Made by a program: the position numbers and the translations under genes. Shown here in pieces: positions 1,532 through 20,004 of a stretch of DNA of 64,000 nt (positions are counted from its first letter, which is position 1; every line of letters starts with the position of its first letter). Source of the stretch: Flavivirga aquimarina (GTDB lineage Bacteria > Bacteroidota > Bacteroidia > Flavobacteriales > Flavobacteriaceae). A model generated the notes under the pieces. That model searched no databases. It was not told the origin of the DNA and saw nothing but the letters and a program-made list of their open reading frames with translations. The stretch is from assembly GCF_030540835.1 (NCBI RefSeq), contig NZ_JAUOEK010000084.1, positions 1 through 64,000 on the forward strand, read 5' to 3'.

Positions 1532-1598
1532 ATTTGAAAACAAACAAGAGCTTCTAAATTTTAGTGCCTTGTGCAACGATTACCGTTGTTGTGGTGCG

Positions 1599-2534
1599 TT
1601 ATTTTTTGCCATCATTTATAAAATCAATCGGAATATCAAATTGAGTTTCTGTTTGATTTGTTTCTTTTTCGTTAACGATATTTAATAGTCTATTAATTAA
1701 TGGTAGAGCAAATTTTGGATATTTATGACCATATCCAATGTGTGTTTTAGTTTTGTTGTCATCAAATATCTGAATTTTAATTAAAGAGCCGTGTGATGAA
1801 CATCCTTTGCTGTCAATATTAAAATGAAAAAAACCACTTTTTCTCAAGTCCGAGTTCAATTCATTAAATTGATTTTCAGACAATGTGTCTTCGTAAAAAA
1901 AATCTTTTGAAATATATTCTTTTCTTGGTTTGCCTTCTTCAAATGGTTTCACTTTTTTAAATGCTTTAAAAGTTCCGTCACTATTTATTTCAAGATATTC
2001 ATAATGCTCTTGAAACCAGCCATTGCTTTTACTTGATATTCTGATTTTTGACCAACTTATTTCCTCAAAAAGAATTTTAGAATTATACAATTTGATTGTT
2101 TGAAAGTAACTTGGCGTGTAGCTACTATCGGAAATGATTTTCTTTGTTTCGTTGTGCGGTCTGTTTTTTAACCAAGCAGATACTGCAATTGCCGAACGGT
2201 TAATTGGATTAAGAATTAAGCTGTCAGAAGTGAACTTATTAATTTTATACCATGAATTGGTTGTTACAAAGTCTGTACAAGGTATCCAAACAGGTTTTCC
2301 GTTTTCGTCTAATGATGAACATTCATTTTTTGGATAAACGTGTTTAATTTTTAATGTATCGTTTGATATCGTGTAACCATTAAAAAAATCAAAAATATCA
2401 CTTCCAATTTTCCCTTCAATTTCCGTAATAAATGTTTCTTGATTATTAAATAACCAAGAGCCTTCTATTTCTTGACATTTTAGGTTGGAAGAATTAATTA
2501 ATATTATTAAAACTAAGATTTTAAATTTATTCAT
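1599..2534 (-). CDS. Exported protein of unknown function (311 aa)
   Basis: The first 20 residues (MNKFKILVLIILINSSNLKC) form a signal peptide and end in a cysteine that could be a lipobox, so the product is exported or a lipoprotein. The remainder is rich in beta-type segments and reads like many small Bacteroidetes secreted proteins (an EGSWLF lipocalin-like start near residue 24 and a second part beginning FEEISWSKIRI near 155). I do not recognise a family. The gene sits alone between the inverted repeats GTTGTGGTGC (1588-1597) and GCACCACAAC (2549-2558), so it is one of the cassette-like units. The upstream neighbour is copy 1 of the long repeat, whose AAGGAG lies 22 bases before the ATG. 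Confidence 0.75.
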   Translation of the reverse strand: MNKFKILVLIILINSSNLKCQEIEGSWLFNNQETFITEIEGKIGSDIFDFFNGYTISNDTLKIKHVYPKNECSSLDENGKPVWIPCTDFVTTNSWYKINKFTSDSLILNPINRSAIAVSAWLKNRPHNETKKIISDSSYTPSYFQTIKLYNSKILFEEISWSKIRISSKSNGWFQEHYEYLEINSDGTFKAFKKVKPFEEGKPRKEYISKDFFYEDTLSENQFNELNSDLRKSGFFHFNIDSKGCSSHGSLIKIQIFDDNKTKTHIGYGHKYPKFALPLINRLLNIVNEKETNQTETQFDIPIDFINDGKK

Positions 2535-2555
2535 GATTTTTCTTTAATGCACCAC

Positions 2556-2818
2556 AACTCCTTATATATACACTAAAAAGTGCGTTTATCCCTTAAATAA
2601 AGTCGGATATATACACCTTAATTATCTTTAGTTTAAAATCGAGAGTATTCAAATGTAAGAAAAACATTCTATCTGGAGCGGGGGAAATAGAAATACTGTG
2701 ATTTTTTAGTCAACCATTAATTTACAAGTAATCTACTGATTTGATAATAAGATTAATCATTGTTAGGTGTTTTTTAGATTTAGGAAAAGAATCACGGTTG
2801 CAAATCCGCGATATCGGG
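2556..2818. repeat. Long cassette-leader repeat, copy 1 (263 bp)
   Basis: First of four near-identical copies (others at 5696, 15813 and 19671). Read on the minus strand, it starts with GATATCGCGGATTTG and ends ATATAAGGAGTT, directly before the inverted-repeat boundary of the gene at 1599-2534. This copy has lost a few bases in the small hairpin near its high-coordinate end (ATCACGGTTGCAAATCCGCG). It contains TACATTTG on the minus strand, which fits the TAnnTTTG minus-7 box, but no good minus-33 partner at the usual distance. Confidence 0.9.
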
Positions 2819-3105
2819 GTAAAAACAGAGACATCCTACACCATTGGTGTAGTAGAATAAATAATAACAGATAACAAAGCTCATAATAAAGTAGATCAAC
2901 CTGCATCACAAAACAACGTGAGTGAATTAATTAGAATCTATTTAGTATCACATTTTTATAACAAGTGGACAGGGTATTAACTTATAATCATACAGATGCT
3001 GGTGACGGTCAGGAATCGATCACAAATAGGATGCTGAGCAAGTTATATCAAAAAGAAAAATAAATAAAATAGTAACTTTGAAACCCCGACAGCTATCGGG
3101 ATTGG
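2819..3105. other. Gene-free stretch between the long repeat and HxlR
   Basis: About 290 bases with no open reading frame that I can support on either strand. It contains a small hairpin (CTACACCATTGGTGTAG near 2836) and, just before the HxlR stop, a near-palindrome described separately. It may be the scar of a deleted gene unit, since no AAC or GTT cassette boundary of the usual type was found here. Confidence 0.5.
3085..3100 (-). terminator. Hairpin after the HxlR gene, possible terminator
   Basis: CCCGACAGCTATCGGG is a near-perfect palindrome immediately after the stop of the HxlR gene on the minus strand, followed there by GGTTTC. The U-tract is short, so it may be a generic repeat-type palindrome rather than a strong terminator. 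Confidence 0.4.
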
Positions 3106-3546
3106 CTAATGCTTTTCATAGGACACGGTGTTGTGGGTGGTTTTTATTCGGTCAACTATTTCCGCTGTCACTTTACTAAAATTTGAATTCACTTCACTTT
3201 TAAATTTACCATTAGCATTATTTCCTTCAATATTGTTTGCTCCCCATTTGTAAATTTCAATAACAATCGGAATTATTTCAATACCTTTTTCTGTTAACGA
3301 ATATAAATATGAGGATTTATTATACACATCTATTTCTTTTTTTAGAATATCGTTATTTAGCAATCGCTTTAATCGGTCAGCAAGAATATTTGTAGAAATC
3401 TTTTCGATGGTTACTAATTCATTAAAGTGCCTGTTGTCAAAGAAAATAAAATCTCTTAATATGAGTAATGTCCATTTGTCTCCAAAAATGTCAAGAGATA
3501 AGCTAATTGGACAGTCCGACCTTCTTTCAATCCTTTTCATATACAA
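3106..3546 (-). CDS. HxlR-family winged-helix transcriptional regulator
   Basis: The 146-residue protein has the HxlR signature: a cysteine near the start (RRSDCPISLSLDIFGDKWTLLILRDFIF), then RHFNELV, ISTNILADRLKRL and the wing YSLTEKGIEIIPI. HxlR proteins are dimeric repressors or activators that often sense electrophiles or oxidants through the N-terminal cysteine. The gene is divergent from the ketoacyl synthase gene at 3637, and their 90-base shared spacer holds a clear promoter and a palindrome, so it most likely regulates that gene and itself. The length is slightly above the usual 110-130 residues because of a C-terminal tail. Confidence 0.92.
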   Translation of the reverse strand: MYMKRIERRSDCPISLSLDIFGDKWTLLILRDFIFFDNRHFNELVTIEKISTNILADRLKRLLNNDILKKEIDVYNKSSYLYSLTEKGIEIIPIVIEIYKWGANNIEGNNANGKFKSEVNSNFSKVTAEIVDRIKTTHNTVSYEKH

Positions 3547-3561
3547 ATATAAAAAAAAGAA

Positions 3562-3592
3562 CTTGTAAAATAAAAGCTCTTTTGTATATTTG
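3562..3592 (+). promoter_or_regulatory. Promoter of the KAS gene, Bacteroidetes type
   Basis: TTG at 3563-3565 and TATATTTG at 3585-3592 are separated by 19 bases, matching the Bacteroidetes primary sigma pattern (TTG, about 19, TAnnTTTG). Transcription would start near 3600 and read into the gene at 3637. Confidence 0.7.
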
Positions 3593-3593
3593 T

Positions 3594-3610
3594 ACTTGTA
3601 ATATGCAAGT
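3594..3610. promoter_or_regulatory. Candidate HxlR operator
   Basis: ACTTGTAATATGCAAGT is an inverted repeat (ACTTG, 7 bases, CAAGT) directly downstream of the minus-7 box, so a bound dimer would block transcription start. The half-site ACTTGTAA is also present at 3561-3568, over the minus-33 element. Assignment to HxlR is inferred from position only. Confidence 0.5.
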
Positions 3611-3636
3611 GCTATTGTATGTTTTAAAATTAAATT

Positions 3637-4881: not shown

Positions 4882-4901
4882 GTCGTTTTTTAATGTGTGT
4901 T

Positions 4902-5033
4902 TTACAACGGTTCGTGTGAAGGATAGTTGCGTGGTTAAGCAATCAACATAGCAAAAATGGAACGAACCAGAGGAAAATCTGAAGGATTTTCCGAGTAGGC
5001 CAGAACCAAGCAATTATTTTCACTTTGTTAGCC
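4902..5033. repeat. attC-like imperfect palindrome, element A
   Basis: Starts ACAACGG and ends TTGTTAGCC. Inner parts match the family: GTTGCGTGG on the left, CAAGCAATTA on the right, and a central hairpin GGAAAATC-TGAA-GGATTTTCC near 4973. It lies directly after the stop side of the gene at 5044-5688, read on the minus strand. Confidence 0.75.
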
Positions 5034-5043
5034 ACTGTGTTTT

Positions 5044-5688
5044 TTATTGAGTTGTAAATTCTTTTATATGTTCACGAATATATTTAATTCGTAAATAACT
5101 AACGCTTTCTATGTTTTCCAATTCGTAAAATTCATCATCAAGATTGTTCAATGGGTTGTCTTTATAAGATTCACTGAAACTTTCCATAGTTCCATCATCA
5201 AATTCAGCAAGTCGCACTTTGTTTTCTGCATAAATTTTATTGGCACGAGAAGTTAAATTCGCATATTTTTCCGCTCCGATTGTTTTAAATCCGATTTCCG
5301 CCATATTTGCATACTGTCCACTCGAATTAAAATAAAATTGATTATATCCACCATTATTTACCTCTCCTTCTAAAATCCAAGTAGACCAAAACGCCTGTTG
5401 TCCTTTAGATAATTTTTGAATATTAGTTAATTCATTTTTATAGTCATTTCCAATTATTTCATAGATATTATCAAATAATGTTTGTTCAAGATTATCATCA
5501 GAAATAGAGTCGATAATTTCCGATGTCAGAATTTTATATATTTTACGATTATTCCATTCTTCAAAAGATTTATCCATTTGAATTTCTTCTTTTGATTTAT
5601 TAGTGTCTCCCATTAACTTCCAGAAAACAAAGAAAATTATAAAAACTATTATTAGTAAAACAATATATAATGTCATAGGTTTTTGCAT
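5044..5688 (-). CDS. DUF4375-domain protein with N-terminal membrane anchor
   Basis: Residues 5-25 form one membrane segment (TLYIVLLIIVFIIFFVFWKL), so the protein is anchored with the rest on one face of the membrane. Residues about 85-205 match the DUF4375 family pattern: GQQAFWSTWILEGEVNNGGYNQFYFNSSG, followed by a helical part with IGAEKYANL. The function of this family is not established; it is common in accessory regions. The gene is a single-gene cassette-like unit with boundaries GTTAGCCAC (5027-5035) and GTGGCTAAC (5690-5698). The ATG follows AAGGAG of the long repeat by 9 bases, which gives a good ribosome binding site. Confidence 0.85.
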   Translation of the reverse strand: MQKPMTLYIVLLIIVFIIFFVFWKLMGDTNKSKEEIQMDKSFEEWNNRKIYKILTSEIIDSISDDNLEQTLFDNIYEIIGNDYKNELTNIQKLSKGQQAFWSTWILEGEVNNGGYNQFYFNSSGQYANMAEIGFKTIGAEKYANLTSRANKIYAENKVRLAEFDDGTMESFSESYKDNPLNNLDDEFYELENIESVSYLRIKYIREHIKEFTTQ

Positions 5689-5695
5689 TGTGGCT

Positions 5696-5967
5696 AACTC
5701 CTTATATACACACTAAAAAAGTGCGTTTATCCCTTAAATAAAGTGAGATATATACACCTTAATTATCTTTAGTTTAAAATCCATAATATTCAAATCTAAG
5801 AAAAATATTCTATCGAGAGCCGGGGAGAAATATAAATACTGTGATTTTTTTAGTCAACCATTAATTTACAAGTAATCATACTGATTAGGTGATAAGATTA
5901 ATTATCATTTGGTGTTTTTTAGATTTAAGAAAAGAATCACGGATTTAAGGTGCAAATCCGCGATATC
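5696..5967. repeat. Long cassette-leader repeat, copy 2 (272 bp)
   Basis: Same sequence as copies 1, 3 and 4 with small differences and a short insertion near the hairpin at its high-coordinate end. Its low-coordinate end is AACTCCTTATATA; on the minus strand this reads TATAAGGAGTT and joins the DUF4375 gene. At the other end it abuts an IS1182 transposase fragment directly. Confidence 0.9.
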
Positions 5968-5981
5968 TGGCAACAAGGTCG

Positions 5982-6242
5982 CTATATGAAATCCAAGCGG
6001 CAAAGTGCAGTAGAACCTGCCTTTGGAACGCTTACCCAGTATATGGGCTTAGGAAAATAAACACTATCGGAATCAAACAAGCCAACAAAGTGATGCATCT
6101 CTCTGCTATGGACTATAACCTCAAGAAATATCTAAAATTCATCTCTAAAACAGTAAAAAGTGATACCAAAGCAGTCTGCCATGTTATTTTAAACATAAAA
6201 GTCTTAATCACACTTCATATAAGACTTTTAACAAACCTTTAA
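5982..6242 (+). pseudogene. C-terminal fragment of an IS1182-family transposase
   Basis: The sequence encodes RYMKSKRQSAVEPAFGTLTQ and, after a one-base deletion near 6050, continues in another frame as NKVMHLSAMDYNLKKYLKF. It is clearly related to but not identical with the C-terminus of the element at 1-1531. Only the last quarter of the gene remains. The region to about 6336 ends with TTAGTGCCTTGTGCAAC, the same end as in the first element, and contains an AAGCTCCTTGAAAAAGAAGCTT hairpin near 6280 that could stop transcription from the IS. The left part has been replaced by the long repeat. Confidence 0.85.
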
Positions 6243-6400
6243 ATTTGAAAACAAACAAGCACTTCCAAAAAATAAAGCTCCTTGAAAAAGAAGCTTTTGA
6301 GTTAATTTCTGTGTTTTTTAGTGCCTTGTGCAACGATTACCATTGTTGTGTGTAGTTTTATATTTTATACTTTTTTATGATTTTAGCAAATTTTTCAGAT

Positions 6401-6670: not shown

Positions 6671-6763
6671 TTATTTTTTGAATGTTTAAAACTACTAAAA
6701 TTTGAGCATAAATTTTATACGTCTTTGTTGCCAGTAGTGTTTTCTATTCCCGTTATTCTGTTT

Positions 6764-7555: not shown

Positions 7556-7567
7556 TTTATGATGTTT

Positions 7568-8302: not shown

Positions 8303-8367
8303 ACTCGTGATATTTAAAGCAAAATTCACGAGAATAAAACCTAGAAGCATTTACATATGTAAAGACT

Positions 8368-8934: not shown

Positions 8935-8959
8935 TTTTGGTTAGGGTGTTCTTTTTTGT

Positions 8960-9109
8960 GACTAACGTTAAGTATATGGTTTGTTGCGTGTTTTAAGTAC
9001 CTAATTTAGCAAATACAAATCGAATAGAAAATCCGCAAGGATTTTCGTAAGTAGGCTAGAACTTAATGACATTAGGCTAGAACTAGCAATAAATTATACG
9101 GTGTTAGAC
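8960..9109. repeat. attC-like imperfect palindrome, element B
   Basis: Begins GACTAACGTTAAGTATATGG and ends ATACGGTGTTAGAC, so the outer arms CTAAC and GTTAG pair, followed by GTATA/TATAC and GTTGC/GCAAT. The centre is a hairpin GAAAATCC-GCAA-GGATTTTC (9027-9046). GTTAGAC fits the integron core GTTRRRY exactly. A partial internal duplication (AGGCTAGAACT, twice) lies near 9050-9085. Confidence 0.8.
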
Positions 9110-9118
9110 AACGTTTTT

Positions 9119-9808
9119 TTATTTATAAATTATTTTTTCCAATTCGTTTTTTTGTCCGTTATAAATTTCGAAAAAGTCAGTTGGTTTATTTGCTATTAAT
9201 TTTACTCTTTCTTCGTTGTCGTGATTCAGTCGGTATATTTTTCCTTTTTTGTCTACCGCAACGTAATTTCCGTCTTCCATATCCAAAATCGTATAGAACA
9301 ATTTTTCGTCCAATTCAATTTCGAATGCATAATCCAATTCCAATAGTTTAAGTTGTTCTTTTGTTAGAGTTTTTAAAGCTTTTTCAGCAATTTTTTGGTC
9401 AGGATTTTCCATTTTCAGATGTTCAAGTTTAATTGCACTTTTCTGAATTTGGTTTAAGTCAAATGTTTTGTGGAAATACTCTGGATTTTCAATCTCAATT
9501 TGGGTCAGCACATCGTGTAGATATTTTAACCTGACGGGTTCGTAAATTCCTGTCTTATGATTCAAAACTGAAATTCCAGTTATATAAAAGAAAGTTTTAT
9601 GATTCCGCTTAACTTCTTCATAGCCTTTTTCACTGCAACTTCTTAAAATGGAAATTGCACTTGGGTTTTTTACAAAGCTAAATCCGTAAAATTTTGAAAT
9701 TTCGATTGCCTTCGTTAATTCAGGCATTTCAGCACGCAACAATTCGGCAATTTTAAGCTCAAATTGTTCAATGTGTTTCTGCTTTATTTTTCGATTGAAA
9801 ATGTTCAT
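9119..9808 (-). CDS. Protein of unknown function (229 aa)
   Basis: No signal peptide or membrane segment is visible, so it should be cytoplasmic. The N-terminal half is charged and helical (EQFELKIAELLRAEMPELTKAIE), and the C-terminal third looks beta-rich (NYVAVDKKGKIYRLNHDNEERVKLI), somewhat like SMI1/KNR4-type immunity proteins, but I cannot assign a family. It is a single-gene cassette-like unit. Its boundaries GTTAGACAAC (9103-9112) and GTTGCCTAAC (9816-9825) are inverted copies of each other with one mismatch. GTTAGGC, read on the minus strand at the start side, is an exact integron-type core. Confidence 0.7.
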   Translation of the reverse strand: MNIFNRKIKQKHIEQFELKIAELLRAEMPELTKAIEISKFYGFSFVKNPSAISILRSCSEKGYEEVKRNHKTFFYITGISVLNHKTGIYEPVRLKYLHDVLTQIEIENPEYFHKTFDLNQIQKSAIKLEHLKMENPDQKIAEKALKTLTKEQLKLLELDYAFEIELDEKLFYTILDMEDGNYVAVDKKGKIYRLNHDNEERVKLIANKPTDFFEIYNGQKNELEKIIYK

Positions 9809-9825
9809 TTTAAATGTTGCCTAAC

Positions 9826-10996: not shown

Positions 10997-11041
10997 AATT
11001 ATTATTTCTTATTATAGTTCTTTTTGTTTTTTCCAGCTTGT

Positions 11042-11173
11042 GGCTAACGTGTTTGTATGAGCAGTAGCGGATTTTTATGCACTTACTGTTCAGTTTAGCA
11101 CAAAGTTAGTTAAAAGCGGACACTTTCATTTTAGCACTTAAACGGCTATTGCTTATAGGACACATTGTTACCT
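11042..11173. repeat. attC-like imperfect palindrome, element C
   Basis: Starts GGCTAACGTGTTTGTATGAG and ends CACATTGTTACC. Inner parts AGTAGCGG and GGCTATTGCTTATAGG follow the family layout, but the central hairpin differs from the GAAAATCC type. It is the most divergent of the seven elements. Confidence 0.6.
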
Positions 11174-11180
11174 GTTGGCT

Positions 11181-12713
11181 TTATTCCTTTAGTTGTTTCA
11201 ATCTGTCAATCGCATTTTGATTTTTTGGATTCAACTCCAAAGACTTTTTGTAATTAAAAACGGCGTTTTGGTAGTCCTTATTATAAAAATACGCTTCGGC
11301 TAAACTGTCATACAGATTTGCTGATTTTGGATAAAGATGCAAAGCCAACAAAAAAACATTTACTCCTTGAACTTTCATTTCAGGGTCAAAAGATAATCGC
11401 AATCCTAAAGTGTTCAACATTCCTTCTTGAAGCTCAAGATTTGGATGATTGCTAATTGTTTTCTTATATAATGGGATTAAATCTTGATAATCCTGTTTGA
11501 ATGCCAAATCATTGAAATCTTTATATGTAAAGTCCTTTTCGATAGCTTTTTTCGTTTGTTTAAAAATCAAAATATCAGAAAACCCGTTTGCAATAGGCTT
11601 ATTTTCTATGAAATCAATTGCTTTTTTCTCATTTTTGAGTGTTGCATTTAAAAACTGCAAAGTATGTTGACAAAGCAAATTGTAGGAAGCCATTATTTTA
11701 TCATCACTTTTATCTTGCCTTTTATCTCTGTTAGCGAATAAGACACCGAAAGAACTAAAATAAGAATGCGATAGGTCGTGAAATCTATATCTGTAAATGT
11801 TGCTATATTTCAAAGAATCGTATAATTGAAATTTGTAGTTCAACTCTTCAGGGATTTTGTCTGTAGTTAGAACTTCCTTTGGAATTTCTTTTTGAGCGAA
11901 ATGGATATAAGGAATGGAAAGCTTATCTAAATTGAAATAGGGTGATTTTTCCAAAACAGGATAATTGTATCTTTCGGTGCCATCCAAACTAACAATTACA
12001 TTTATAGTCTTGTTTTTCATGACAGTAATAGCATTTGACAATCCACCAAAACTAAATCCCATTAATGCCACTTTTTCAAAATCAATATTCTCGTAGCTGT
12101 GAATTTCTTTTAGAAGAAACTCAACATCTCTCGATTGCGTTTCCATATCTTTTGTAGTACCGCCTTCCAACCAACGTGTATCTGTTCCTCTTGAAGGACT
12201 TGATATCACTACAAAACCGTTACTGGCTAAATACTCGAATAATGCAAAGTTTTCAATTGACGAGGCTTGATAACTTGGTGCATAAACTACTACTGGAAAT
12301 TTTCCGTCTAATAATGTTGGATTAGAAAAAGCATTTCCCTTTTCAGAAAGATGCGCCTTATTTTCTGATGTGTTCCATAAATAAGGAAACCAATCCAACA
12401 GAAAGTAATTCGGTAAATTTTTCCATTCTTCCTCTTCTTTTAAAACCTCTAAATAGTTTAAGACTGTTAATTGCTCAGAATTACTATCTTCTATTTTTGC
12501 GGGATACCAAATACTTATTGGAATGGGTCTCTTAATAAGTCGATTGTTAAACTCATTATGAATTTGATAGGTTCTTGTGCTATCATTGACTGTATAATGT
12601 TTAAAACCTACTTCATATTTTCCGGCTTTAAGCCCGATTTCTTTTAAGGATGTCTGTCCTTTCATAGAACAGACTTGAAGAAGTATTATGGTTACTAAAA
12701 TTATTTTTCTCAT
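11181..12713 (-). CDS. Alpha/beta hydrolase with C-terminal TPR repeats, exported
   Basis: A signal peptide (residues 1-19) is followed by a dienelactone-hydrolase or acetylhydrolase-like domain: PISIWYPA near 47, FPVVVYAPSYQ, and the nucleophile elbow ALMGFSFGG near residue 220. Acid and histidine residues are present later (VSLDGTE; YRFHDLSHSYF). Residues about 415-510 carry tetratricopeptide-like repeats ending LYDSLAEAYFYNKDYQNAVFNYKKSLELNP. The fused arrangement is found in Bacteroidetes secreted esterases; the substrate is unknown. It is the last gene of a three-gene set with a serine hydrolase and an AraC regulator. Its unit begins at GTTACCTG (11167-11174). Confidence 0.85.
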   Translation of the reverse strand: MRKIILVTIILLQVCSMKGQTSLKEIGLKAGKYEVGFKHYTVNDSTRTYQIHNEFNNRLIKRPIPISIWYPAKIEDSNSEQLTVLNYLEVLKEEEEWKNLPNYFLLDWFPYLWNTSENKAHLSEKGNAFSNPTLLDGKFPVVVYAPSYQASSIENFALFEYLASNGFVVISSPSRGTDTRWLEGGTTKDMETQSRDVEFLLKEIHSYENIDFEKVALMGFSFGGLSNAITVMKNKTINVIVSLDGTERYNYPVLEKSPYFNLDKLSIPYIHFAQKEIPKEVLTTDKIPEELNYKFQLYDSLKYSNIYRYRFHDLSHSYFSSFGVLFANRDKRQDKSDDKIMASYNLLCQHTLQFLNATLKNEKKAIDFIENKPIANGFSDILIFKQTKKAIEKDFTYKDFNDLAFKQDYQDLIPLYKKTISNHPNLELQEGMLNTLGLRLSFDPEMKVQGVNVFLLALHLYPKSANLYDSLAEAYFYNKDYQNAVFNYKKSLELNPKNQNAIDRLKQLKE

Positions 12714-12723
12714 AATTGTGTAT

Positions 12724-14232
12724 TTATTCTTTTTTTAGGAAATTAATTTCACTAAAGTCAACATCAAGTAGGCTTTCTTGGTCAAAGGATATTCCTAATA
12801 TTTTTCTGTCTGAATTGAAATTAAATGTTAAATATCCATCAGGCACTCTTATGTCGTACCAATCAATTTTGAATGTATCAAAATGCCAATGTTCTAACTT
12901 TCCTCTAAATATAGAAGAGCGTGAAAAAGAAATCTCTAGTTCTTTTTCGTTCAACGGTTCTATATTAATGTCTCCATACATTTTATCTGTGTATACTCCC
13001 GTATAACCATTTAAGCCAAGCGAAGGCGACGTGTTATTGACTCTTGTTTTGATTTTAGGTTCTCTATTTACCCTTCTATCTCTATACCCTTTAACAGTCT
13101 CATAAAAGTCAAGGGATTTATCCTCAAATATCTGTTCAAGTAATTTAGCTTTTAGCAAAAAGGAAGCTGGCTCTTTTGAAATATTGGTTAATATGATTAC
13201 ACCTATGTTTAGATTTTTTATCATAAAAAGCTTTGCAGCCATTCCATCAATGACACCATTATGTTCAATTAGTTTATCATTATTTCTCGGTGTAACCCAC
13301 CAACCAAAACCGTAGGAAGAGAATTCATTACCAAAAGGTGAGCCTTCAATAGGATAGATTATTTGGGGTTTGATAATTTCTGCGAGGGTCGATTTGCTTA
13401 TTATAGTATCTTGTTTAAAAACCCCATCATTAAGCAACATTTTCATATACTTGTTCATATCATTTGCTGACGAGTATATAAAACCAGCAGGTGCAAGATT
13501 ATCTCCTTTTTCTTGAGCAACTAGCATTTTCTTGTAATCTTCATTCCAAACGTGCGGAAACGCCAAATTTTTATTACTTTCTCTGACCGAAGAAATTGAG
13601 GTGCTATTTCTCATCTCAAGTTTATCGAATATCCTATTTTTTAGAAAATCATCCCAACTTGTTCTTGCAACCATGCTTACTATTTCTCCCGCAACGAGAT
13701 ACATCACATTTTGATACGCTGGTTTTTCCCGAAAACCTGATACTGGTTCTAAATATTTTAATTTTTTGATAATATCTTTTCTCGACAAATCTGAATGATA
13801 CCAAAGTGTTCCTCCACTAATTTCTTTAAGCCCGCTCCTATGAGTAAGTAAATCTCTAATAGTAAAATTTTCCGAAACGTAGGAATCATACAACTCAAAA
13901 TAAGGTAGATAGTCTTTTACCTTATCATCCCAGTCTATTTTTCCTTCATCTACCAGTATTCCAAGAGTTAAAGCCGTAAAAGATTTTGAAATTGAGCCTA
14001 TGCCAAAGATGGTGTTTTCATCAATAGGTAAGTTTTCATTGACTTTTCTCGTGCCAAATCCTTTTGAGTAAATAACAGAATCGTTTCTTACGATACCAAT
14101 TGAAAGACCAGTTACTTCAAAATCTTTCATTAGTTGGTTAATGAAAGGCTCAATTGCCTCAAGTTGTATCTTTTGAGGATAGGCATTAATCGTAATGCCG
14201 AAAAGAAATATCAAATATAAAAACTTATTCAT
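12724..14232 (-). CDS. Serine hydrolase, class C beta-lactamase-like
   Basis: The signal peptide (residues 1-19) and the motif S80-I-S-K83 (GIGSISKSFTAL), a YQNVMY motif around residue 168 and HNGV near 345 identify a class C beta-lactamase/penicillin-binding fold enzyme. The C-terminal 130 residues form an extra domain typical of periplasmic peptidase or esterase members. The natural substrate is not evident, and resistance should not be assumed. It lies 10 bases upstream of the alpha/beta hydrolase gene and downstream of an AraC-type regulator, all in one direction. Confidence 0.88.
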   Translation of the reverse strand: MNKFLYLIFLFGITINAYPQKIQLEAIEPFINQLMKDFEVTGLSIGIVRNDSVIYSKGFGTRKVNENLPIDENTIFGIGSISKSFTALTLGILVDEGKIDWDDKVKDYLPYFELYDSYVSENFTIRDLLTHRSGLKEISGGTLWYHSDLSRKDIIKKLKYLEPVSGFREKPAYQNVMYLVAGEIVSMVARTSWDDFLKNRIFDKLEMRNSTSISSVRESNKNLAFPHVWNEDYKKMLVAQEKGDNLAPAGFIYSSANDMNKYMKMLLNDGVFKQDTIISKSTLAEIIKPQIIYPIEGSPFGNEFSSYGFGWWVTPRNNDKLIEHNGVIDGMAAKLFMIKNLNIGVIILTNISKEPASFLLKAKLLEQIFEDKSLDFYETVKGYRDRRVNREPKIKTRVNNTSPSLGLNGYTGVYTDKMYGDINIEPLNEKELEISFSRSSIFRGKLEHWHFDTFKIDWYDIRVPDGYLTFNFNSDRKILGISFDQESLLDVDFSEINFLKKE

Positions 14233-14307
14233 AACAAAGAATACTCAAAATATTGCTACAAAATAAAATCTTTTCAGAGTAAAAAAATTGTATAAATGGA
14301 AACCGAA

Positions 14308-15114
14308 CTATATGGATAACCATACTACGTCTTCACTTGAATCTATACTTTTGAAAAACAAACTTGGATTGATATTGGTGAGCGATTTGAACTCCTTTAT
14401 AAAATGGGATTGGTCGTAAAAAAGACTTTTATAGGAAAGTTCTGTTAAGTTGTTTACCTTCTGAAAATCTAATAATGCATTTCTAAACTTGTGAACTTTA
14501 CGATATTCAGAAGGCGTTTTACCGACAGTATTAAAAAAGATTCTATTTAGATATTGTCTTGATATTTGGTGCTTTTTTGAAATGTCAGCAATACTATGAT
14601 CGCTCTCCAAATCCGCAATGATGTTTTCTATTCTATCCGTTTCAATATTTTTAAGTTTGGATAGCCAATAATTCTCAAGGTGCTCTATTTGTTCATCTCT
14701 ATTCTCTATATCAATGATGGATTGCATTTTCGTATTCAAATCATCGAATGGTTGAAAATCCATACAAAAACCACTAATAAAGTAATCTGAAAGGTTTGTA
14801 ATAAAATAATTGAGTCCAAGAGGCTTAAACTTAATTGTTATTTCATTGGTAGGTTCTTGAAACGTGACTTTAAAAGGTTTGGTATATCGTAATACTAAGT
14901 CGGTTACAACTTTTTCCTTCTCAGAAGGTGTTACTAAAATTTGTCCTTCTTCAATTTTTACATCTGAGTTTTGAGTGGTACTAACAAAGCATAAATTATA
15001 AGGAAAAGTTATATAATGTAAAGGCAATTTTGATTTCCCTTTTGCCATAAAATAATAACCATCAATATACCTTCTCAAGGTTTCATTTTTTGGCTTGTAA
15101 TGTTGGACGTTCAT
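14308..15114 (-). CDS. AraC-family transcriptional regulator
   Basis: The C-terminal 100 residues hold two helix-turn-helix motifs of the AraC/XylS type (SIADISKKHQISRQYLNRIF and LTELSYKSLFYDQSHFIKEF, followed by NINPSLFFK). The N-terminal 150 residues (MNVQHYKPKNETLRRYIDGYYF) match the sensor domain often paired with AraC in Bacteroidetes (DUF6597 type). It probably controls the two downstream hydrolase genes with which it shares orientation. The ATG is 75 bases upstream of the serine hydrolase start. Confidence 0.9.
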   Translation of the reverse strand: MNVQHYKPKNETLRRYIDGYYFMAKGKSKLPLHYITFPYNLCFVSTTQNSDVKIEEGQILVTPSEKEKVVTDLVLRYTKPFKVTFQEPTNEITIKFKPLGLNYFITNLSDYFISGFCMDFQPFDDLNTKMQSIIDIENRDEQIEHLENYWLSKLKNIETDRIENIIADLESDHSIADISKKHQISRQYLNRIFFNTVGKTPSEYRKVHKFRNALLDFQKVNNLTELSYKSLFYDQSHFIKEFKSLTNINPSLFFKSIDSSEDVVWLSI

Positions 15115-15249
15115 TTTTTTTTAGCTTCTGATTAACGTAAGATTATTGTGTTCAAAATCAACAATTTAAAATTAGTTGTTTTTTATCTCATTTTTCTCAT
15201 CTTCGTTAGCCATAGTACTAAAGACTCTTTTGGAGTCTATGAGGGATTG
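15115..15249. other. Leader region upstream of the AraC gene
   Basis: Between the AraC start and the AAC boundary at 15257 are about 135 bases without a gene. AGACTC-TTTTG-GAGTCT (15222-15238) is a perfect 6-bp hairpin. ATTAACG (15133) and CGTTAGCC (15204) resemble cassette cores, so a short remnant unit may lie here. Confidence 0.4.
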
Positions 15250-15250
15250 C

Positions 15251-15383
15251 AGGTAACGGTTGCGTATAAGAATAGTGCGGTTTTGAGTCCGAGGATTTTC
15301 CGTAGGAAAATCGGAGTGACCAAATACGCACTAGTCTTTGATTAAGCATAAAACTAAGCATTATTTTTATAGATTGTTGGCAA
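15251..15383. repeat. attC-like imperfect palindrome, element D
   Basis: Starts AGGTAACGGTTGCG and ends AGATTGTTGGCA. It contains an inner hairpin GATTTTCC-GTA-GGAAAATC near 15292, the reverse of the hairpin in the other elements, and the right-hand motif AAGCATTATTTTTATAG. Confidence 0.7.
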
Positions 15384-15389
15384 TAGTAT

Positions 15390-15803
15390 TTATTTAATTT
15401 TCCACAGTTCACTGTTTTTCAAAGTATAAGTTCCTGTAAACCAATTTATTGTTATTAAGTCGACTTTTACATTTTTGCATTCTGAACAATTAGCTATTTT
15501 TTCATTAAATTCAGTCGGAATGATATTGTTTTTCGATGACTTGAAAGATAATAAGCTTTTCCCATTTTCATCAATTCCAGAGATTCTAAATCCGAGAATT
15601 TTATAATTAATATTCTTCCTTTTTAGAAAATTAGATTTTAGTCGTATTGAATCTAACTGATTTATATTGAATAATTCAATTTCAACGTCAGAACGCTTTT
15701 CAAATTCCGCTGTTATTTTTTCTCTTTCTTCAAGACTCTGGGAAAAGCCAGAAAAATGAACAAAAGTAAAGACTATCAAAATAGAAACTTTCATTGTTTT
15801 CAT
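15390..15803 (-). CDS. Small exported protein of unknown function (137 aa)
   Basis: A signal peptide (about residues 1-21, ending HFSGFSQ) precedes a small soluble domain with one CSEC motif (residues about 107-110). No family is recognised. It is a single-gene cassette-like unit bordered by GTTGGCAAT (15377-15385) and GTTTCCAAC (15807-15815), which are inverted copies with a mismatch. The ATG lies 11 bases after AAGGAG of the long repeat, so translation would use the repeat's ribosome binding site. Confidence 0.7.
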   Translation of the reverse strand: MKTMKVSILIVFTFVHFSGFSQSLEEREKITAEFEKRSDVEIELFNINQLDSIRLKSNFLKRKNINYKILGFRISGIDENGKSLLSFKSSKNNIIPTEFNEKIANCSECKNVKVDLITINWFTGTYTLKNSELWKIK

Positions 15804-15812
15804 ATTGTTTCC

Positions 15813-16068
15813 AACTCCTTATATACACACTAAAAAGTGCGTTTATCCCTTAAATAAAGTCGGATATATACACCTTAATTATCTTTAGTTTAAAACCCAG
15901 AGTATTCAAATCTAAGAAAAATATTCTATCGGGAGCGGGGGAGAAATAGAAATACTGTGATTTTTTTAGTCAACCATTAATTTACAAGTAATCATACTGA
16001 TTTGGTGATAAGATTAATTATCGTTTGGTTAGGAAAAGAATCACGGATTACAAATCCGCGATATCGGG
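15813..16068. repeat. Long cassette-leader repeat, copy 3 (256 bp)
   Basis: Third copy, shorter by a deletion next to TTTGGTTAGGAAAAG near 16030. Read on the minus strand, it begins two bases after the stop codon of the gene at 16070 and ends in AAGGAGTT at the gene at 15390. No GTT-type boundary separates it from the upstream gene, unlike the attC-like elements. Confidence 0.9.
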
Positions 16069-16069
16069 T

Positions 16070-16852
16070 TTATTTCCACCATATAATTTTTTCTTTCTTT
16101 CTACTTTCTTCAATGTCTTGTTTATCGAAAGTCATAAAGCCCTCTGATTGTCTAGTTTTATCAGATTCAAAATCTTTAGGAACTCCAATAAATGAACCCT
16201 GGTGTGCTAAAACATAAGTTCTCCACCCATTGTCAATATATTTTGAGTTAAAAATATAAAACTCATTGTCGTAATGCTTAAACAAATCATTTCGTTTGGT
16301 TGGTGGAATTTGAATCCCCCAGCTACAATATTTTGGAGTGTCTTTTTTATAATCTTTCCATTCGCCTATAAATTCAGAAACACCTTCTTGTCCGTACCAA
16401 TCACTATTTACAACAAATCCAGTTGATGTTTTGTCATACATGGTTCTAAAGTCACCAAGGAATTGTCCTACGTGTGATTGCGTCTCATTTTCATTTAGTT
16501 CATAGTTTCCACTTAAAAATCCAAATGAATAATCAGGGTCTTCACAATCTAAATTCTTTTCGTCAAGTTTCATTGATTTTTGAATCAGAATTTTGCCTGT
16601 GAAATCACAAATATTTGAATTGACTTTCGATTTTCCAATCACGGAATAAGTCTTATCGTTTACCTTTGAAACTGAAATAAACCGAATTTCTATTCTCTGA
16701 TTATTTTTTCCAATTGTTCCTTGAAAAGTCTCACCAATCCAAATACCACTAAAATCATTTCGTAGCATATCTTTGCTTTCAATATAGCAATCTTGACCAC
16801 TAACGTGAACAGTCAAAAAAATCAGTGTTATTACTTGTAATATTCCTCTCAT
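16070..16852 (-). CDS. Exported protein of unknown function (260 aa)
   Basis: A signal peptide (about residues 1-19) precedes a domain that begins DFSGIWIGETFQGTIGKNNQRIEIRF and continues in alternating beta-like segments, reminiscent of lipocalin-type or META-like small secreted proteins. No family or catalytic residues are recognised. The start side has GCCAACG (16898-16904), an attC-like core. The stop side runs directly into the long repeat, and the matching boundary is missing. Confidence 0.7.
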   Translation of the reverse strand: MRGILQVITLIFLTVHVSGQDCYIESKDMLRNDFSGIWIGETFQGTIGKNNQRIEIRFISVSKVNDKTYSVIGKSKVNSNICDFTGKILIQKSMKLDEKNLDCEDPDYSFGFLSGNYELNENETQSHVGQFLGDFRTMYDKTSTGFVVNSDWYGQEGVSEFIGEWKDYKKDTPKYCSWGIQIPPTKRNDLFKHYDNEFYIFNSKYIDNGWRTYVLAHQGSFIGVPKDFESDKTRQSEGFMTFDKQDIEESRKKEKIIWWK

Positions 16853-16896
16853 ATTTATACTATCTCATTATTTCTTGGTATCGCTCATTCCATGCC

Positions 16897-17139
16897 CGCC
16901 AACGTCAGTCTGTCTCAAAACTAATTTTACTTCTCTGAGAATCTCATATTTGAGATTTTTCAAAGATACCTATCCGAATACCAAAACCAAAATAAGAGGT
17001 TTTGAGACAGTCTGACGGTCTCGGCTATGAGTAGTTGCGTGTGTTAGCACTTAACTTTGCAAGTACACACCAAACTGAAAATCTGCGAGGGTTTTCAGAA
17101 GTAGGCGAGAACAAGCAATTACTTATAGCATCGTTGTGC
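16897..17139. repeat. attC-like imperfect palindrome, element E, with MITE insertion
   Basis: Starts CCGCCAACGT and ends TAGCATCGTTGTGC. Without the 109 bp insertion at 16906-17014 the element would be about 130 bp. The inner parts are typical: TAGTTGCGTGTG, the central hairpin GAAAATCT-GCGA-GGGTTTTC near 17080, and CAAGCAATTACTTATA. Confidence 0.75.
16906..17014. mobile_element. MITE-like element, copy 1 (109 bp)
   Basis: Terminal inverted repeats CAGTCTGTCTCAAAAC and GTTTTGAGACAGTCTG match over 16 bases with one mismatch. It is flanked by ACGT and ACGG, nearly a 4-base target duplication. No coding capacity is present, so it depends on a transposase elsewhere. The sequence is almost identical to the copy at 18870. 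Confidence 0.85.
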
Positions 17140-17147
17140 GTTCGGCT

Positions 17148-17714
17148 TTATTCATTAATTCTTAAATAAATATTAGTTTCTTCCCAAACTTTTGCATCTC
17201 CAAAAATCAGAAGTAAAGCTCCTGAATTGTCAAAAATATCATTTAAAATCAAATCGTTATTTTGGTTTAATGCTATTCGTACTTTTTTTACGTCAACTCC
17301 ACCGAAGACGTATGGTATTCCTCTGATTATTGTATTGCGATTTTTGACATATAAAAACCCGTCATTTTTAAATTTATATCTAATTGTTTGACTTTTGACA
17401 ATGTTATTTTTCTTAATGAAGTCAATTTGCAATTTTCTGTCGTCAATAATCTTGATTTTGAATTTTCCTCCGCTTATTGTGTCAAAACTTATTGTATCAC
17501 TTTGTCCTCTTCCATATTTACGATAAAACTTGTTGTTTGCATTGTCAAAATATGGGTATTCAGTTTTTAATTTGTCAAACGCAAAAATAGAATAGGTACC
17601 ATTCAAATTGTTTACATTGGCATTATTTATTTTTACGTGATTTTCCGGATTATTTTTAAAAACACCACAACTAAAAAATAATAAGGACAAAAAAATTAAG
17701 TAGGTGTTTTTCAT
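17148..17714 (-). CDS. Lipoprotein of unknown function (188 aa)
   Basis: The first 16 residues end in a lipobox (LLFFSC), so the product is a lipoprotein. The rest is beta-rich, with NLNGTYSIFAFD near residue 38 and GIPYVFGGVDVKKVRIALNQ near 146, but no family is recognised. It forms a single-gene cassette-like unit with perfect 9-base inverted boundaries GTTGTGCGT (17133-17141) and ACGCACAAC (17747-17755). Confidence 0.75.
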   Translation of the reverse strand: MKNTYLIFLSLLFFSCGVFKNNPENHVKINNANVNNLNGTYSIFAFDKLKTEYPYFDNANNKFYRKYGRGQSDTISFDTISGGKFKIKIIDDRKLQIDFIKKNNIVKSQTIRYKFKNDGFLYVKNRNTIIRGIPYVFGGVDVKKVRIALNQNNDLILNDIFDNSGALLLIFGDAKVWEETNIYLRINE

Positions 17715-17748
17715 TCAAATTCTTTTCAGTTTCTATTTTGCGGCTGAC

Positions 17749-17880
17749 GCACAACGTATTTGTATATGGTTTGTTGCGTGTTTTAATCACCTAATTTAGC
17801 AAATACAAACCGAATAGAAAATCCGCGAGGATTTTCTTAAGTAAGCAAGAACTAGCAATAAATTATATTCGGTGTTAGCT
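17749..17880. repeat. attC-like imperfect palindrome, element F
   Basis: Starts GCACAACGTATTTGTATATGG and ends TATTCGGTGTTAGCT. The inner GTTGCGTG and CTAGCAATAAATTATA pair partly, and the centre is a perfect hairpin GAAAATCC-GCGA-GGATTTTC near 17818. It is very similar to element B, although the genes on either side are unrelated. Confidence 0.82.
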
Positions 17881-17884
17881 ACAG

Positions 17885-18292
17885 TTATTTATTTGGTTGT
17901 TGTTTCGGTTTTATTAATTTCATTAGCTCTTTCTTTTTGTACGGCATTCTCATTGTTCTTCGATTACTAATAAATCCGTAATCATTCCACATCAATTCCG
18001 CTCCATCTTCGATGTCTTCATAAATCGGTAACAATTCTCCGATACCAACAAAAATCCATTCCATTTCTATTTTGTCAGAATTCGTAAATTTATATTCCGC
18101 TTCTTTTCCGAGCTTTACAGCTTTATCAAATGCTTTTTCTGGTGAATCAGCCTTAATTAAATGATGATTTCCCCAAGTTGTCACTCTTCGCAATTCTTGC
18201 TTTTCATTTCGCTCAACAGGTTCGCATTTTTCAATAATCTCAACGATGTACCAATTCCCGTTTTTATTTGAAATCTTTTCTGCGTTTTTCAT
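17885..18292 (-). CDS. DUF4288-domain protein
   Basis: The 135-residue protein shows the pattern of DUF4288: WYIVEIIEKCEPVE, a middle helix SPEKAFDKAVKLGKEAEYKF, and MEWIFVGIGELLPIYEDIEDGAEL. No signal peptide or membrane segment is visible, so it is cytoplasmic. The family is often found in accessory clusters and its role is unknown. The start codon overlaps the last base of the gene upstream (18292), so the two are translationally coupled and belong to one two-gene cassette-like unit. Confidence 0.85.
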   Translation of the reverse strand: MKNAEKISNKNGNWYIVEIIEKCEPVERNEKQELRRVTTWGNHHLIKADSPEKAFDKAVKLGKEAEYKFTNSDKIEMEWIFVGIGELLPIYEDIEDGAELMWNDYGFISNRRTMRMPYKKKELMKLIKPKQQPNK

Positions 18293-18843
18293 TATTCTCT
18301 TAAATATTTTGAAAATACGTTTGCATAACGGTCGTCAAAACTCAATTTTGTTATATCCTCAAAATTGTGCTTTGTATTTTTCTTGTCTAAAATGCCTTGA
18401 GCATTAAAATATCTTATCGAAATTGATTTTTTATTAATACGCTTTAACAGTCCAATGCAAAAAAAGTTTTGTTTAGGATGTTCGCATTCCGATATAATTG
18501 TTAATTCCGTTGCTTTAATATCTTTCACTATTGAATTCCAATCCGTTAAATCAACTTTATATTTAGCTTTTACTTCACTTATTAATCCTTCTTCTTTTAA
18601 AATCCGATGGATTGTTTTGTCATTCTTATTATATCTAACGTGTTTAATTGTTTGAATTGGAATGACTTGATAGCCTAAAACTCTGAATTCATCTGTTTCT
18701 TGAAGTAATATAAAATCAGATGACTTATCGAGAATAAATCCAGTAGAGGTTCCCTCAAAACCACCTTTTTTTCTTGTTAGTCGAACGTAAAGTTTTTCAG
18801 AACAATGTTTCTCTAATTTTTCTATTACTTTCTCTTTTTTCAC
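18292..18843 (-). CDS. Cytoplasmic protein of unknown function (183 aa)
   Basis: No signal or membrane segment is seen. The N-terminal third (KLYVRLTRKKGGFEGTSTGFILDKSSDFILLQ) looks like a small barrel. A second similar part, SECEHPKQNFFCIGLLKRINKKSISIRYFNAQG, suggests two Sm-like or SH3-like folds, but this is an inference from pattern only. It is coupled with the DUF4288 gene, and together they lie between GTTAGCTACA (17874-17883) and TGTAGCTAAC (18858-18867), a perfect 10-base inverted pair. Confidence 0.75.
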   Translation of the reverse strand: MKKEKVIEKLEKHCSEKLYVRLTRKKGGFEGTSTGFILDKSSDFILLQETDEFRVLGYQVIPIQTIKHVRYNKNDKTIHRILKEEGLISEVKAKYKVDLTDWNSIVKDIKATELTIISECEHPKQNFFCIGLLKRINKKSISIRYFNAQGILDKKNTKHNFEDITKLSFDDRYANVFSKYLRE

Positions 18844-18860
18844 GGTTCTGTTTTAATTGT

Positions 18861-19102
18861 AGCTAACGGCAGTCTGTCTCAAAACTAATTTTACTTCTCT
18901 GAGGATCTCATATTTGAGATTTTTCAAAGATACCTATCCGAATACCAAAACCAAAATAAGAGGTTTTGAGACAGTCTGACGGTCTTGTGTATGATTTCGT
19001 TGCGTGTTTCAGCAACTAATTTAGCAAATACAAACCGAATAGAAAATCCGAGAGGATTTTCGTAAGTAGGCGAGTACTAGCGATGAATTATATACGTTGC
19101 CA
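18861..19102. repeat. attC-like imperfect palindrome, element G, with MITE insertion
   Basis: Starts AGCTAACGG and ends TATACGTTGCCA. A 109 bp MITE sits at 18870-18978 with perfect ACGG duplications. The central hairpin GAAAATCC-GAGA-GGATTTTC lies near 19041. The right part CTAGCGATGAATTATATAC overlaps the stop codon of the gene at 19088. Confidence 0.78.
18870..18978. mobile_element. MITE-like element, copy 2 (109 bp)
   Basis: Same ends as copy 1 (CAGTCTGTCTCAAAAC and its inverse). The flanks are ACGG at 18866-18869 and ACGG at 18979-18982, a perfect 4-base target duplication. An internal hairpin around TCTCATATTTGAGA is shared with copy 1. Confidence 0.88.
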
Positions 19103-19663
19103 ACTGTGCTTTTCATTCAGTTCGTTTTCTAATATCGTTTGTATTTCTTTTCTTAAAATTCCTTTAGTTTGGGAAACGTTCCATTCTTTTTTTTCGCTCA
19201 AAGTGATAAAGAAAGGTTGACATTCCGATTCTCTGACTAAATAACACATTAACGTTCCGATTTCATTCACTTTTGAGTTTCCACTATACCAAATAAAAAG
19301 TCCGTCATTAGTAAATTCCGATACATATCTTTTCAGGTTATCTTTACTTTCTTGGTAAATATGCAAAGTTTTTGGATTTTCCTTTTTCACATACTGTTCA
19401 GCCGTTTTTTGATAAAAATCAGAAGATTCAACACGATTCGGATGAAAAGGCGGAATTGTTGTTTCTCCTTTCCAAATTGATAATCCAGACATTATTGTTC
19501 CAGAAAATTCCATCCATTTTTCGTCAAACCAATTATCTATTCGATTCACGAAAATATCAGTCGGATTCCAAAGGTTAATTCGGTTCTGAATTATTTTCTC
19601 GCAGTTGAGAATAAAATTCGGATTATCGTTATGTTTTTCTTTCAGCAGTTTCATTTTCGGCAT
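19088..19663 (-). CDS. Cytoplasmic protein of unknown function (191 aa)
   Basis: A soluble protein without a signal peptide, beginning MPKMKLLKEKHNDNP. It contains NLWNPTDIFVNRIDNWFDEKWMEFSG and a C-terminal segment with ESECQPFFITLSEKKEW, but I do not recognise the family. I used the ATG at 19663, 9 bases after AAGGAG of the long repeat; a TTG three codons upstream is possible. The last codons (SWQRI and stop) are read from the boundary GTTGCCAAC (19096-19104) and the attC-like element, so the stop codon is supplied by element G. The opposite boundary is GTTGGCAAC (19665-19673). Confidence 0.75.
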   Translation of the reverse strand: MPKMKLLKEKHNDNPNFILNCEKIIQNRINLWNPTDIFVNRIDNWFDEKWMEFSGTIMSGLSIWKGETTIPPFHPNRVESSDFYQKTAEQYVKKENPKTLHIYQESKDNLKRYVSEFTNDGLFIWYSGNSKVNEIGTLMCYLVRESECQPFFITLSEKKEWNVSQTKGILRKEIQTILENELNEKHSWQRI

Positions 19664-19670
19664 TGTTGGC

Positions 19671-19936
19671 AACTCCTTATATACACACTAAAAAGTGCGT
19701 TTATCCCTTAAATAAAGTCGGATATATACACCTTAATTATCTTTAGTTTAAAATCCAGAGCATTCAAATGTAAGAAAAATATTCTATCGGGAGCGGGGGA
19801 GAAATAGAAATACTGTGATTTTTTTAGTCGACCATTAATTTACAAGCAATCTACTGATTTGATGATAAGATTAATCATTGTTAGGTGTTTTTTAGATTTA
19901 GGAAAAGAATCACGGATTACAAATCTCCGATATCGG
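19671..19936. repeat. Long cassette-leader repeat, copy 4 (266 bp)
   Basis: Fourth copy, lying between the dnaN terminator and the first gene of the accessory region. Read on the minus strand, it starts GATATCGGAGATTTGTAATCCG and ends TGTGTATATAAGGAGTT, where the gene at 19088-19663 begins. As the copy next to the conserved gene dnaN, it could mark the border of the accessory region. Confidence 0.9.
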
Positions 19937-19951
19937 ATTTACTTATAAGAA

Positions 19952-19987: not shown

Positions 19988-20004
19988 CTGTATTATGAGA
20001 TTCC

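Follow-up and report, generated by a model that had tools for sequence, protein, structure and literature searches.

The stretch of DNA analysed here (the window) covered positions 1 to 64,000 of contig C75 of Flavivirga aquimarina, whose 5.29-Mb genome is assembled in 184 contigs. Between positions 1588 and 19673 it carried eight minus-strand gene units, each enclosed by a short inverted pair that begins with GTT at the stop side and ends with AAC at the start side. This region is very probably a worn remnant of an array of integron-like cassettes that has its own recombinase lineage and differently built sites. The original prediction had listed the eight boundary pairs. Seven of them (1 to 4 and 6 to 8) were exact in coordinates and match counts, while the stop side of pair 5 was off by one base: it matched at 4 of 8 positions at 15377-15384, and at 7 of 8 after a shift to 15376-15383 (GTTGGCAA versus GTTGGAAA). 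Two components had been missed, namely seven attC-like repeats of about 125 nucleotides (nt) at the stop sides and one repeat of 250-267 nt that adjoins units 1, 2, 5 and 8 alike. The features of the region are listed below; a slash before GTT marks the cassette boundary.

1588..2558, minus strand: cassette 1, a 311-amino-acid (aa) open reading frame (ORF) without Pfam match; ends GTTGTGGTGC and GCACCACAAC, matching at 10 of 10; starts at putative attI copy A
2559..2817, minus strand: putative attI-bearing repeat copy A; its attI core adjoins 2558 and reads ...TATATAAGGA/GTT on the minus strand
4906..5030, minus strand: attC-like site of cassette 2 (profile E 3.9e-14)
5027..5698, minus strand: cassette 2, DMP19-like protein; boundary 9 of 9; starts at putative attI copy B
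5699..5945, minus strand: putative attI-bearing repeat copy B
8962..9107, minus strand: attC-like site of cassette 3, with an internal insertion of about 21 nt; found in two pieces (E 1.0e-20 and 0.02)
9103..9825, minus strand: cassette 3, 229-aa ORF without Pfam match; boundary 9 of 10
11044..11171, minus strand: attC-like site of cassette 4 (profile E 3.6e-11)
11167..15257, minus strand: unit 4, three genes (hydrolase/TPR, PF00144 serine-hydrolase family with DUF3471, AraC-type regulator); boundary 8 of 8
15255..15379, minus strand: attC-like site of cassette 5, found by iterated profile
15376..15815, minus strand: cassette 5, 137-aa ORF without Pfam match; boundary 7 of 8; starts at putative attI copy C
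15816..16071, minus strand: putative attI-bearing repeat copy C
17012..17136, minus strand: attC-like site of cassette 6 (profile E 5.8e-26)
17133..17755, minus strand: cassette 6, 188-aa ORF without Pfam match; boundary 9 of 9
17752..17877, minus strand: attC-like site of cassette 7 (profile E 1.6e-30)
17874..18867, minus strand: cassette 7, two genes, one with DUF4288 and the other without Pfam match; boundary 10 of 10
18976..19100, minus strand: attC-like site of cassette 8 (profile E 7.2e-30)
19096..19673, minus strand: cassette 8, without Pfam match; boundary 9 of 9; starts at putative attI copy D
19674..19940, minus strand: putative attI-bearing repeat copy D, between the array and a putative polymerase-subunit gene

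The stop side of cassette 1 adjoins an insertion element which, like the other transposase elements of the window, we take to belong to the IS1182-like family; the gene beyond copy D is presumably that of the DNA polymerase III beta subunit, judging by its product. Among the ten window proteins first scanned, six had no Pfam match at E ≤0.01, as is usual for cassette genes. Whether unit 4, with three genes in 4.1 kb, is a single cassette or fused cassettes is less certain.

Paired boundaries of this kind did not arise at a comparable rate by chance, a check that the original prediction had proposed. A scan of the 60 nt on either side of ORFs of at least 120 aa, made blind to the listed pairs, recovered units 1, 2 and 6; their matches (10, 9 and 9 nt) were each reached in 0 of 200 shuffles. 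The scan missed the other five units, some of which are multi-gene or, like unit 8, overlap the ORF start. Flank matches of at least 8 nt occurred in 3 of 18 ORFs within 1-19.7 kb versus 1 of 37 in the remaining window. In the fetched parts of the source genome, the partner ends of neighbouring sites matched better than in all 10000 permutations. Read in gene direction, the repeat of about 125 nt starts with NNNNNNNAAC and ends with the GTTNNNNNNN of the next unit. One copy yielded 30 BLAST matches in the source genome, and a profile of 21 of the genome's own copies (three from the window) yielded 71 matches at E ≤0.1 and 64 at E ≤0.001, many of them clustered.

In relatives, the outer 10 nt of an attC-like site pair with the start of its own cassette. 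This rule held for 42 of 55 neighbouring cassettes in a first set (matches of 9-10 nt; wrong partners 1.7%; 0 of 10000 permutations as high) and for 260 of 300 in a larger one (9-10 of 10; wrong partners 3.4%), in which the two ends of one attC repeat matched in 28 of 300 only. The larger set consisted of 23 arrays with 337 sites and 300 neighbouring cassettes; its arrays were picked as site-rich, and some of these arrays had contributed to the profile. As the ends match across the gene and not within the repeat, the outer box is part of the cassette, as it would be had a circle been opened at that point. The 40 non-matching cassettes were longer (median 1766 versus 788 nt), as expected if an intervening site had been missed. 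Arrays ran in one direction, with 47 sites in 65 kb (plus two on the other strand) in one genome and 40 in 40 kb in another, and a median cassette of 788 nt. The claim that the repeats match inside a unit and differ between units was therefore borne out in hundreds of cassettes of relatives, as was the remark that few ends fit GTTRRRY: GTT was present in 260 of 260 sites and GTTRRRY in 20 of 260. The R boxes recognized by IntI follow the consensus RYYYAAC / GTTRRRY.

Below the outer box lies a stem that, in the alignment of 78 diverse sites, covaries. Over its 14 pairs, 90.0% of the cells were paired and 158 two-sided changes were counted; pairing fell to 72.6%, with 48 two-sided changes, when the letters of the 3' side were redealt, and to 22-51% when the partner was slid by 1-3 columns. 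Two further stem positions were nearly always an A.C mismatch (74 and 66 of the 78 sites), read as T.G on the other strand. Spacers were constant at 3 nt (77 of 78) and 6 nt (71 of 78). Extra bases in the stem arms were not: the alignment placed none in 51 sites, 1-4 in the R''-L'' arm in 13 and 1-2 in the other arm in 17, three sites having them in both. In 43 rebuilt circle sites, all selected for matching ends, the bottom strand folded in silico with a mean z of -4.8 (G-T pairs off) and beat the top strand in 35. RNAalifold returned no pair for the first 21 sites, of which the alignment was rough and the outer boxes came from different cassettes, and Rfam gave no match at E ≤1 in window positions 1-20000.

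Comparison of related arrays indicated that cassettes move as exact units. Among 267 cassettes whose own ends matched at 8 or more positions, 246 pairs shared ≥80% identity across ≥90% of the length of each member. For the 95 pairs at 97% identity or higher, both neighbours were unrelated in 84, one was shared in 11 and both were shared in none. These pairs depend on one another, the copies forming 25 clusters at ≥95% with up to 12 members. Eleven of the 246 pairs linked different genomes, the best at 99.0% over 968 nt between different genus codes. The original prediction had named unchanging gene neighbourhoods as a finding that would speak against cassettes; near-identical cassettes instead had different neighbours, the comparison being made in relatives other than strains of this species. 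Within the 84 pairs, the downstream sequences split at the first base after GTT in 41, the upstream sequences at the second base before it in 45, and both in 23; the remaining pairs shared a few more bases, with three sharing 48-125 nt on one side. The base before GTT was identical within all 84 pairs, and the 23 pairs that split on both sides place the exchange within C/GTT. The boundary core differed between the partners in 107 of the 246 pairs, each core matching its own other end, as was the condition for entry into the set.

No intI-like gene had been seen in the window, and the source genome yielded integrase remnants. On contig C140, open pieces of 73 and 124 aa (the second in a 148-aa frame) correspond to the two ends of a tyrosine recombinase and are followed by two gene units, the ends of which match by eye at 6 nt (weak) and 8 nt; contig C172 carries a second recombinase fragment. 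Besides these fragments, the matches listed for the genome (to about E 2e-11) comprised one Xer and no intact integrase. Relatives carry full-length recombinases of about 370-420 aa. A scan of named genomes gave at least 80 loci, in Algibacter, Winogradskyella, Seonamhaeicola, Mesonia, Zunongwangia, Flavobacterium, Algoriphagus and others. In the first profile search, arrays lay directly 3' of the enzyme gene in Algibacter, S0862, Winogradskyella, Seonamhaeicola and a Sphingobacteriales metagenome-assembled genome, and at many other loci none was found. A set of 33 complete Flavobacteriaceae genomes contained 27 recombinases that aligned from the N-terminal stretch to the end. Sites on the same strand lay downstream of 22 of these (two or more sites in 20), versus 1 of 13 Xer controls, which were the top of the Xer-like matches with one skipped. 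Counted within the stretch fetched around each recombinase, 157 sites were downstream on the same strand and 7 elsewhere.

These enzymes are tyrosine recombinases (Pfam Phage_integrase match at 2.6e-40) with the catalytic R, K, H, R, H and Y invariant in 13 aligned members, and as judged from alignment they lack the IntI-specific domain between patches II and III. The spacing from the lysine to HxxR was 63-65 (69 in L123) in the Bacteroidota enzymes measured versus 106-107 in six IntI, and IntI4 aligned to an array enzyme in two pieces, leaving IntI4 residues 199-246 unmatched. Nine enzymes scored 190-215 bits against TIGR02249 (cut-off 265; IntI controls 489 and 458) and 164-212 bits against the XerC and XerD models (cut-offs 335 and 330). 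Five of the nine passed the cut-off of 220 for NF040815, the NCBIfam XerA-type recombinase/integron integrase model, at 223-243 bits, and four fell at 196-215; a pass against this model assigns a name rather than a demonstrated function. In a first tree with 9 IntI rows and in a rebuilt one with 8, from which 21 rows had been dropped, IntI formed one clade at 100/100 with the array enzymes outside it; in the rebuilt tree the array enzymes formed a clade separate from XerC/XerD, also at 100/100; the deeper order was without resolution. An N-terminal stretch of about 95 aa is an extra part of the array recombinase. Structure prediction from 24 sequences reached a predicted local distance difference test score (pLDDT) of 85 and a predicted template modelling score of 0.57, versus a mean pLDDT of 39 from one sequence. 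The fold search hardly covered the stretch (about 1-95; rows span 99-366), and no PDB sequence matched it at E <0.2.

Other recombinases were met alongside. Genomes G133 (eight copies) and G253 (several) carry tyrosine recombinases of about 300 aa without the N-terminal stretch, some in attC-rich regions of G253; possibly these are cassette-borne or transposon enzymes. Related recombinases without the IntI domain occur at loci L131, L144, L145, L154, L156 and L163, whose record titles name Undinarchaeales, Spirochaetota, Firmicutes, Woesearchaeota, Oceanirhabdus and Methanosarcinales; a profile search limited to sites of the present type found none at these six. Locus L113:5896-6351 (reverse-strand coordinates), in a complete genome, was 88% identical over 461 nt to L150, an uncultured Flavobacteriaceae contig.

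An attI-like site, taken as the GTT partner of the first attC, lay no more than 136 nt from the stop codon, mostly at 27-136 nt, in 21 of 45 recombinase loci (L045 of the source genome being left out). These comprised 9 of a first 18 loci, two with only 6 nt matching, and 12 of a further 27, one of them at -15 of a broken gene; 19 of the 21 placed sites had at least 8 matching bases. In ten of the 21, a palindrome stops 4-6 nt short of GTT, its arms measuring 11-13 nt with up to one mismatch allowed; nine different palindromes were seen. Palindromic sites accompanied six of the seven enzymes of the Winogradskyella-type clade (L110, L113, L130, L149, L231 and L240, not L137), the enzymes of the other four lying outside the tree. 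Most of the remaining sites ended in ATATAACCA or a variant before GTT. Including the seven of the source genome, 14 of 28 attI sequences exceeded the shuffled 95% mark for inverted repeats.

In the window, the four repeats of 250-267 nt end in TATATAAGGA/GTT. Their end, TGTATATAAGGA/GTT (TATATATAAGGA in copy A), resembles the bases after the two integrase remnants, CATATATAACGA/GTT (also given as TATATAACGA/GTT) on C140 and CACATATAAGGA/GTT (also given as CATATAAGGA/GTT) on C172; owing to this resemblance, units 1, 2, 5 and 8 appear to sit directly on copies of attI. That the four repeats are instead the ends of insertion elements is unlikely. Copy B does adjoin an IS1182-like remnant, which across 290 nt shares 79% identity with the element at 1269-1558, and the 201-nt stretch searched occurs in only 1 of 12 genomes of the genus, the source genome itself. 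Against such an origin, all four copies meet a cassette start exactly at GTT, with an ending close to the bases that follow both remnants.

Insertion elements have entered the sites of the array in the source genome. A 113-nt element resembling a miniature inverted-repeat transposable element (MITE), with inverted ends GTCAGTCTGTCTC...GAGACAGTCTGAC, lies at 18868-18980 and 16904-17016, with a fragment at 9826. In the source-genome stretches, 8 of 8 occurrences follow an apparent attC 3' end at CCGT, the search pattern having required C before GT, so the element seems to target attC-like sites. A second element type at cassette boundaries is the IS1182-like one, pieces of which (DUF772, DDE_Tnp_1_6) at 1-1587, 5981-6345 and L045:12480-12919 end directly after the AAC of an R'' box. 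Within the cassette region, 3106-4881 holds a plus-strand ketoacyl synthase and a short minus-strand ORF without cassette boundaries.

The sites were widespread. At E ≤0.001 they were found in 219 of 249 sampled Flavobacteriaceae genomes (194 of 210 of good quality), with 1 to at least 14 matches per genome, of which one or two do not show an array. In a draw across the phylum at E ≤0.0001, 60 of 218 genomes had sites; 14 of the 22 family genomes matched, and all eight misses belonged to one genus code. The model used for spread, which includes the stem, was built mostly from Flavobacteriaceae, so that counts further away are low estimates. The IntegronFinder 2.0 survey credits Bacteroidetes proper with one complete integron, in Salinibacter ruber M1 (PMC9024848), and a review mentions detection of integrons in Bacteroidota among other phyla. 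No description of the present system was found in searches of open PubMed Central papers, preprints and most subscription journals lying outside that scope.

The original prediction had offered two readings of the region: an attC family that diverged in Flavobacteriaceae, or a recombination system akin to that of integrons. Exact cassette movement, a dedicated recombinase, and sites and an enzyme unlike those of IntI integrons uphold its integron-like reading. That the system is a true IntI integron in which IntI lost the extra domain, with ordinary attC sites of relaxed sequence, is doubtful: the IntI clade excludes all array enzymes at 100/100, the spacing from lysine to HxxR differs by the width noted above (63-65, 69 in one, against 106-107), and GTTRRRY occurs in 20 of 260 sites. 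The NF040815 model is of XerA type, and the two true IntI controls fell below its cut-off (193 and 179 bits).

The array enzymes are related to Xer, and action of Xer on a folded strand is described for the CTX phage (PMC4792948). Cassettes might thus be moved by the host XerC/XerD, as in Xer-exploiting phages and elements, with the neighbouring recombinase incidental. The distribution of sites makes this very improbable, since they cluster 3' of the recombinase with the N-terminal stretch (22 of 27) and not of Xer genes (1 of 13), and the attI-like site, where found, follows shortly after the stop of the array enzyme. It is hardly conceivable that the repeats are simply dispersed palindromes, MITE-like or of the repetitive extragenic palindromic kind, that lie near genes and produce boundary pairs as a by-product. 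The site is indeed a repeated palindrome, and MITE-like and insertion elements are present in the array; yet the cassette-specific outer 6-7 nt find their match on the far side of the gene instead of inside the repeat, genes travel complete with the repeat and stop at one common point, and the sites are linked to one recombinase.

For the integron-like array, the evidence suggests the following mode of operation. In intact relatives the platform begins with the gene of a tyrosine recombinase (about 370-420 aa), followed beyond the stop codon by an attI-like site and then by the array, in which cassettes read in the same direction away from the 3' end of the enzyme gene, each a short gene with its attC-like site. 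The bottom strand of a free cassette circle would fold so that the 10-nt outer box pairs with its partner, GTT fixed at the inner end and the rest cassette-specific, followed by the unpaired 3/6-nt spacer and then a 16-position stem with the two nearly fixed A.C mismatches. The recombinase would cut within C/GTT and join the cassette to attI or to another attC. As the cassette-specific bases differ between partners, an exchange that requires an overlap common to two double strands does not fit, and a single-strand exchange does. We infer this single-strand mechanism, the cut base and the role of the enzyme from sequence comparisons.

Several observations weigh against this reading. The case for recombination is drawn from sequence, and selecting the 43 rebuilt sites for matching ends by itself produces part of their fold statistics. 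The enzyme lacks the IntI extra domain, leaving its way of holding a folded strand unaccounted for; 7 of the 27 recombinases have internal stops, and 5 have no downstream site, with 2 and 5 sites, respectively, found on the opposite strand or side of two of these. One Xer control had a single site 8.3 kb downstream and another a site elsewhere. At 24 of the 45 loci no attI could be placed within 136 nt, the best partner being further along or no site having been found, and four attI copies in one array are unaccounted for. In the fetched parts of the source genome, a match of at least 9 nt survives in only 10 of 45 pairs of neighbouring sites, and the 184-contig assembly could hide an intact enzyme. 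The array there is worn and interrupted, and alone would make a weaker case; with the enzyme found only as fragments, it is probably frozen.

The system works like an integron and fails three tested features of IntI integrons, namely the extra domain, the clade and GTTRRRY; by alignment it also fails a fourth, the extrahelical bases in the L'' arm. We tentatively propose, at somewhat less than an even chance, that integrons had a second origin: recombinases of a Bacteroidota lineage that lacks the IntI domain may have come independently to recombine folded single strands, two conserved mismatches taking the place of bulged bases in choosing the strand, and some members may use an attI whose core varies in sequence yet is always a palindrome, perhaps itself read as a hairpin. 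If the role of the array enzyme is confirmed, the system would be a second case for studying the evolution of strand choice, of direction and of single-strand exchange. Messier and Roy (2001) reportedly describe the additional domain of IntI, in their title, as necessary for activity; the role of the array enzyme, if confirmed, would mean that this domain is not the sole way to run a cassette system. The single complete integron of the Bacteroidetes survey stands against sites in 219 of 249 genomes of one family, and the system may account for some of the gene turnover in these bacteria, while adding a second set of components with which genes can be shuffled.

Known attC sites have R boxes of 9-11 nt (PMC2727003). 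Like sedentary chromosomal IntI integrons, the system in relatives combines a tyrosine recombinase, an adjoining attI and long one-direction arrays of short genes. It also shares with IntI integrons the cassette-specific complementary R boxes of about 10 nt, the foldable palindromic sites, the GTT exchange triplet and the frequency of remnants that lack an integrase. The array enzyme differs from IntI in having no additional domain, in falling outside the IntI clade and in its N-terminal stretch of about 95 aa, and it reads toward the array. In the sites, the R boxes rarely fit GTTRRRY, the L stem has two nearly fixed A.C mismatches and no constant bulge, and 10 of the 21 attI of relatives have a palindrome next to GTT. 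Xer recombinases have hardly any adjoining sites (1 of 13 downstream), lack the N-terminal stretch and form a separate clade. In its state, the window resembles the integrase-less integron clusters, with sites and cassettes and no local intact enzyme; it differs from them in the type of site and in the presence of four putative attI copies.

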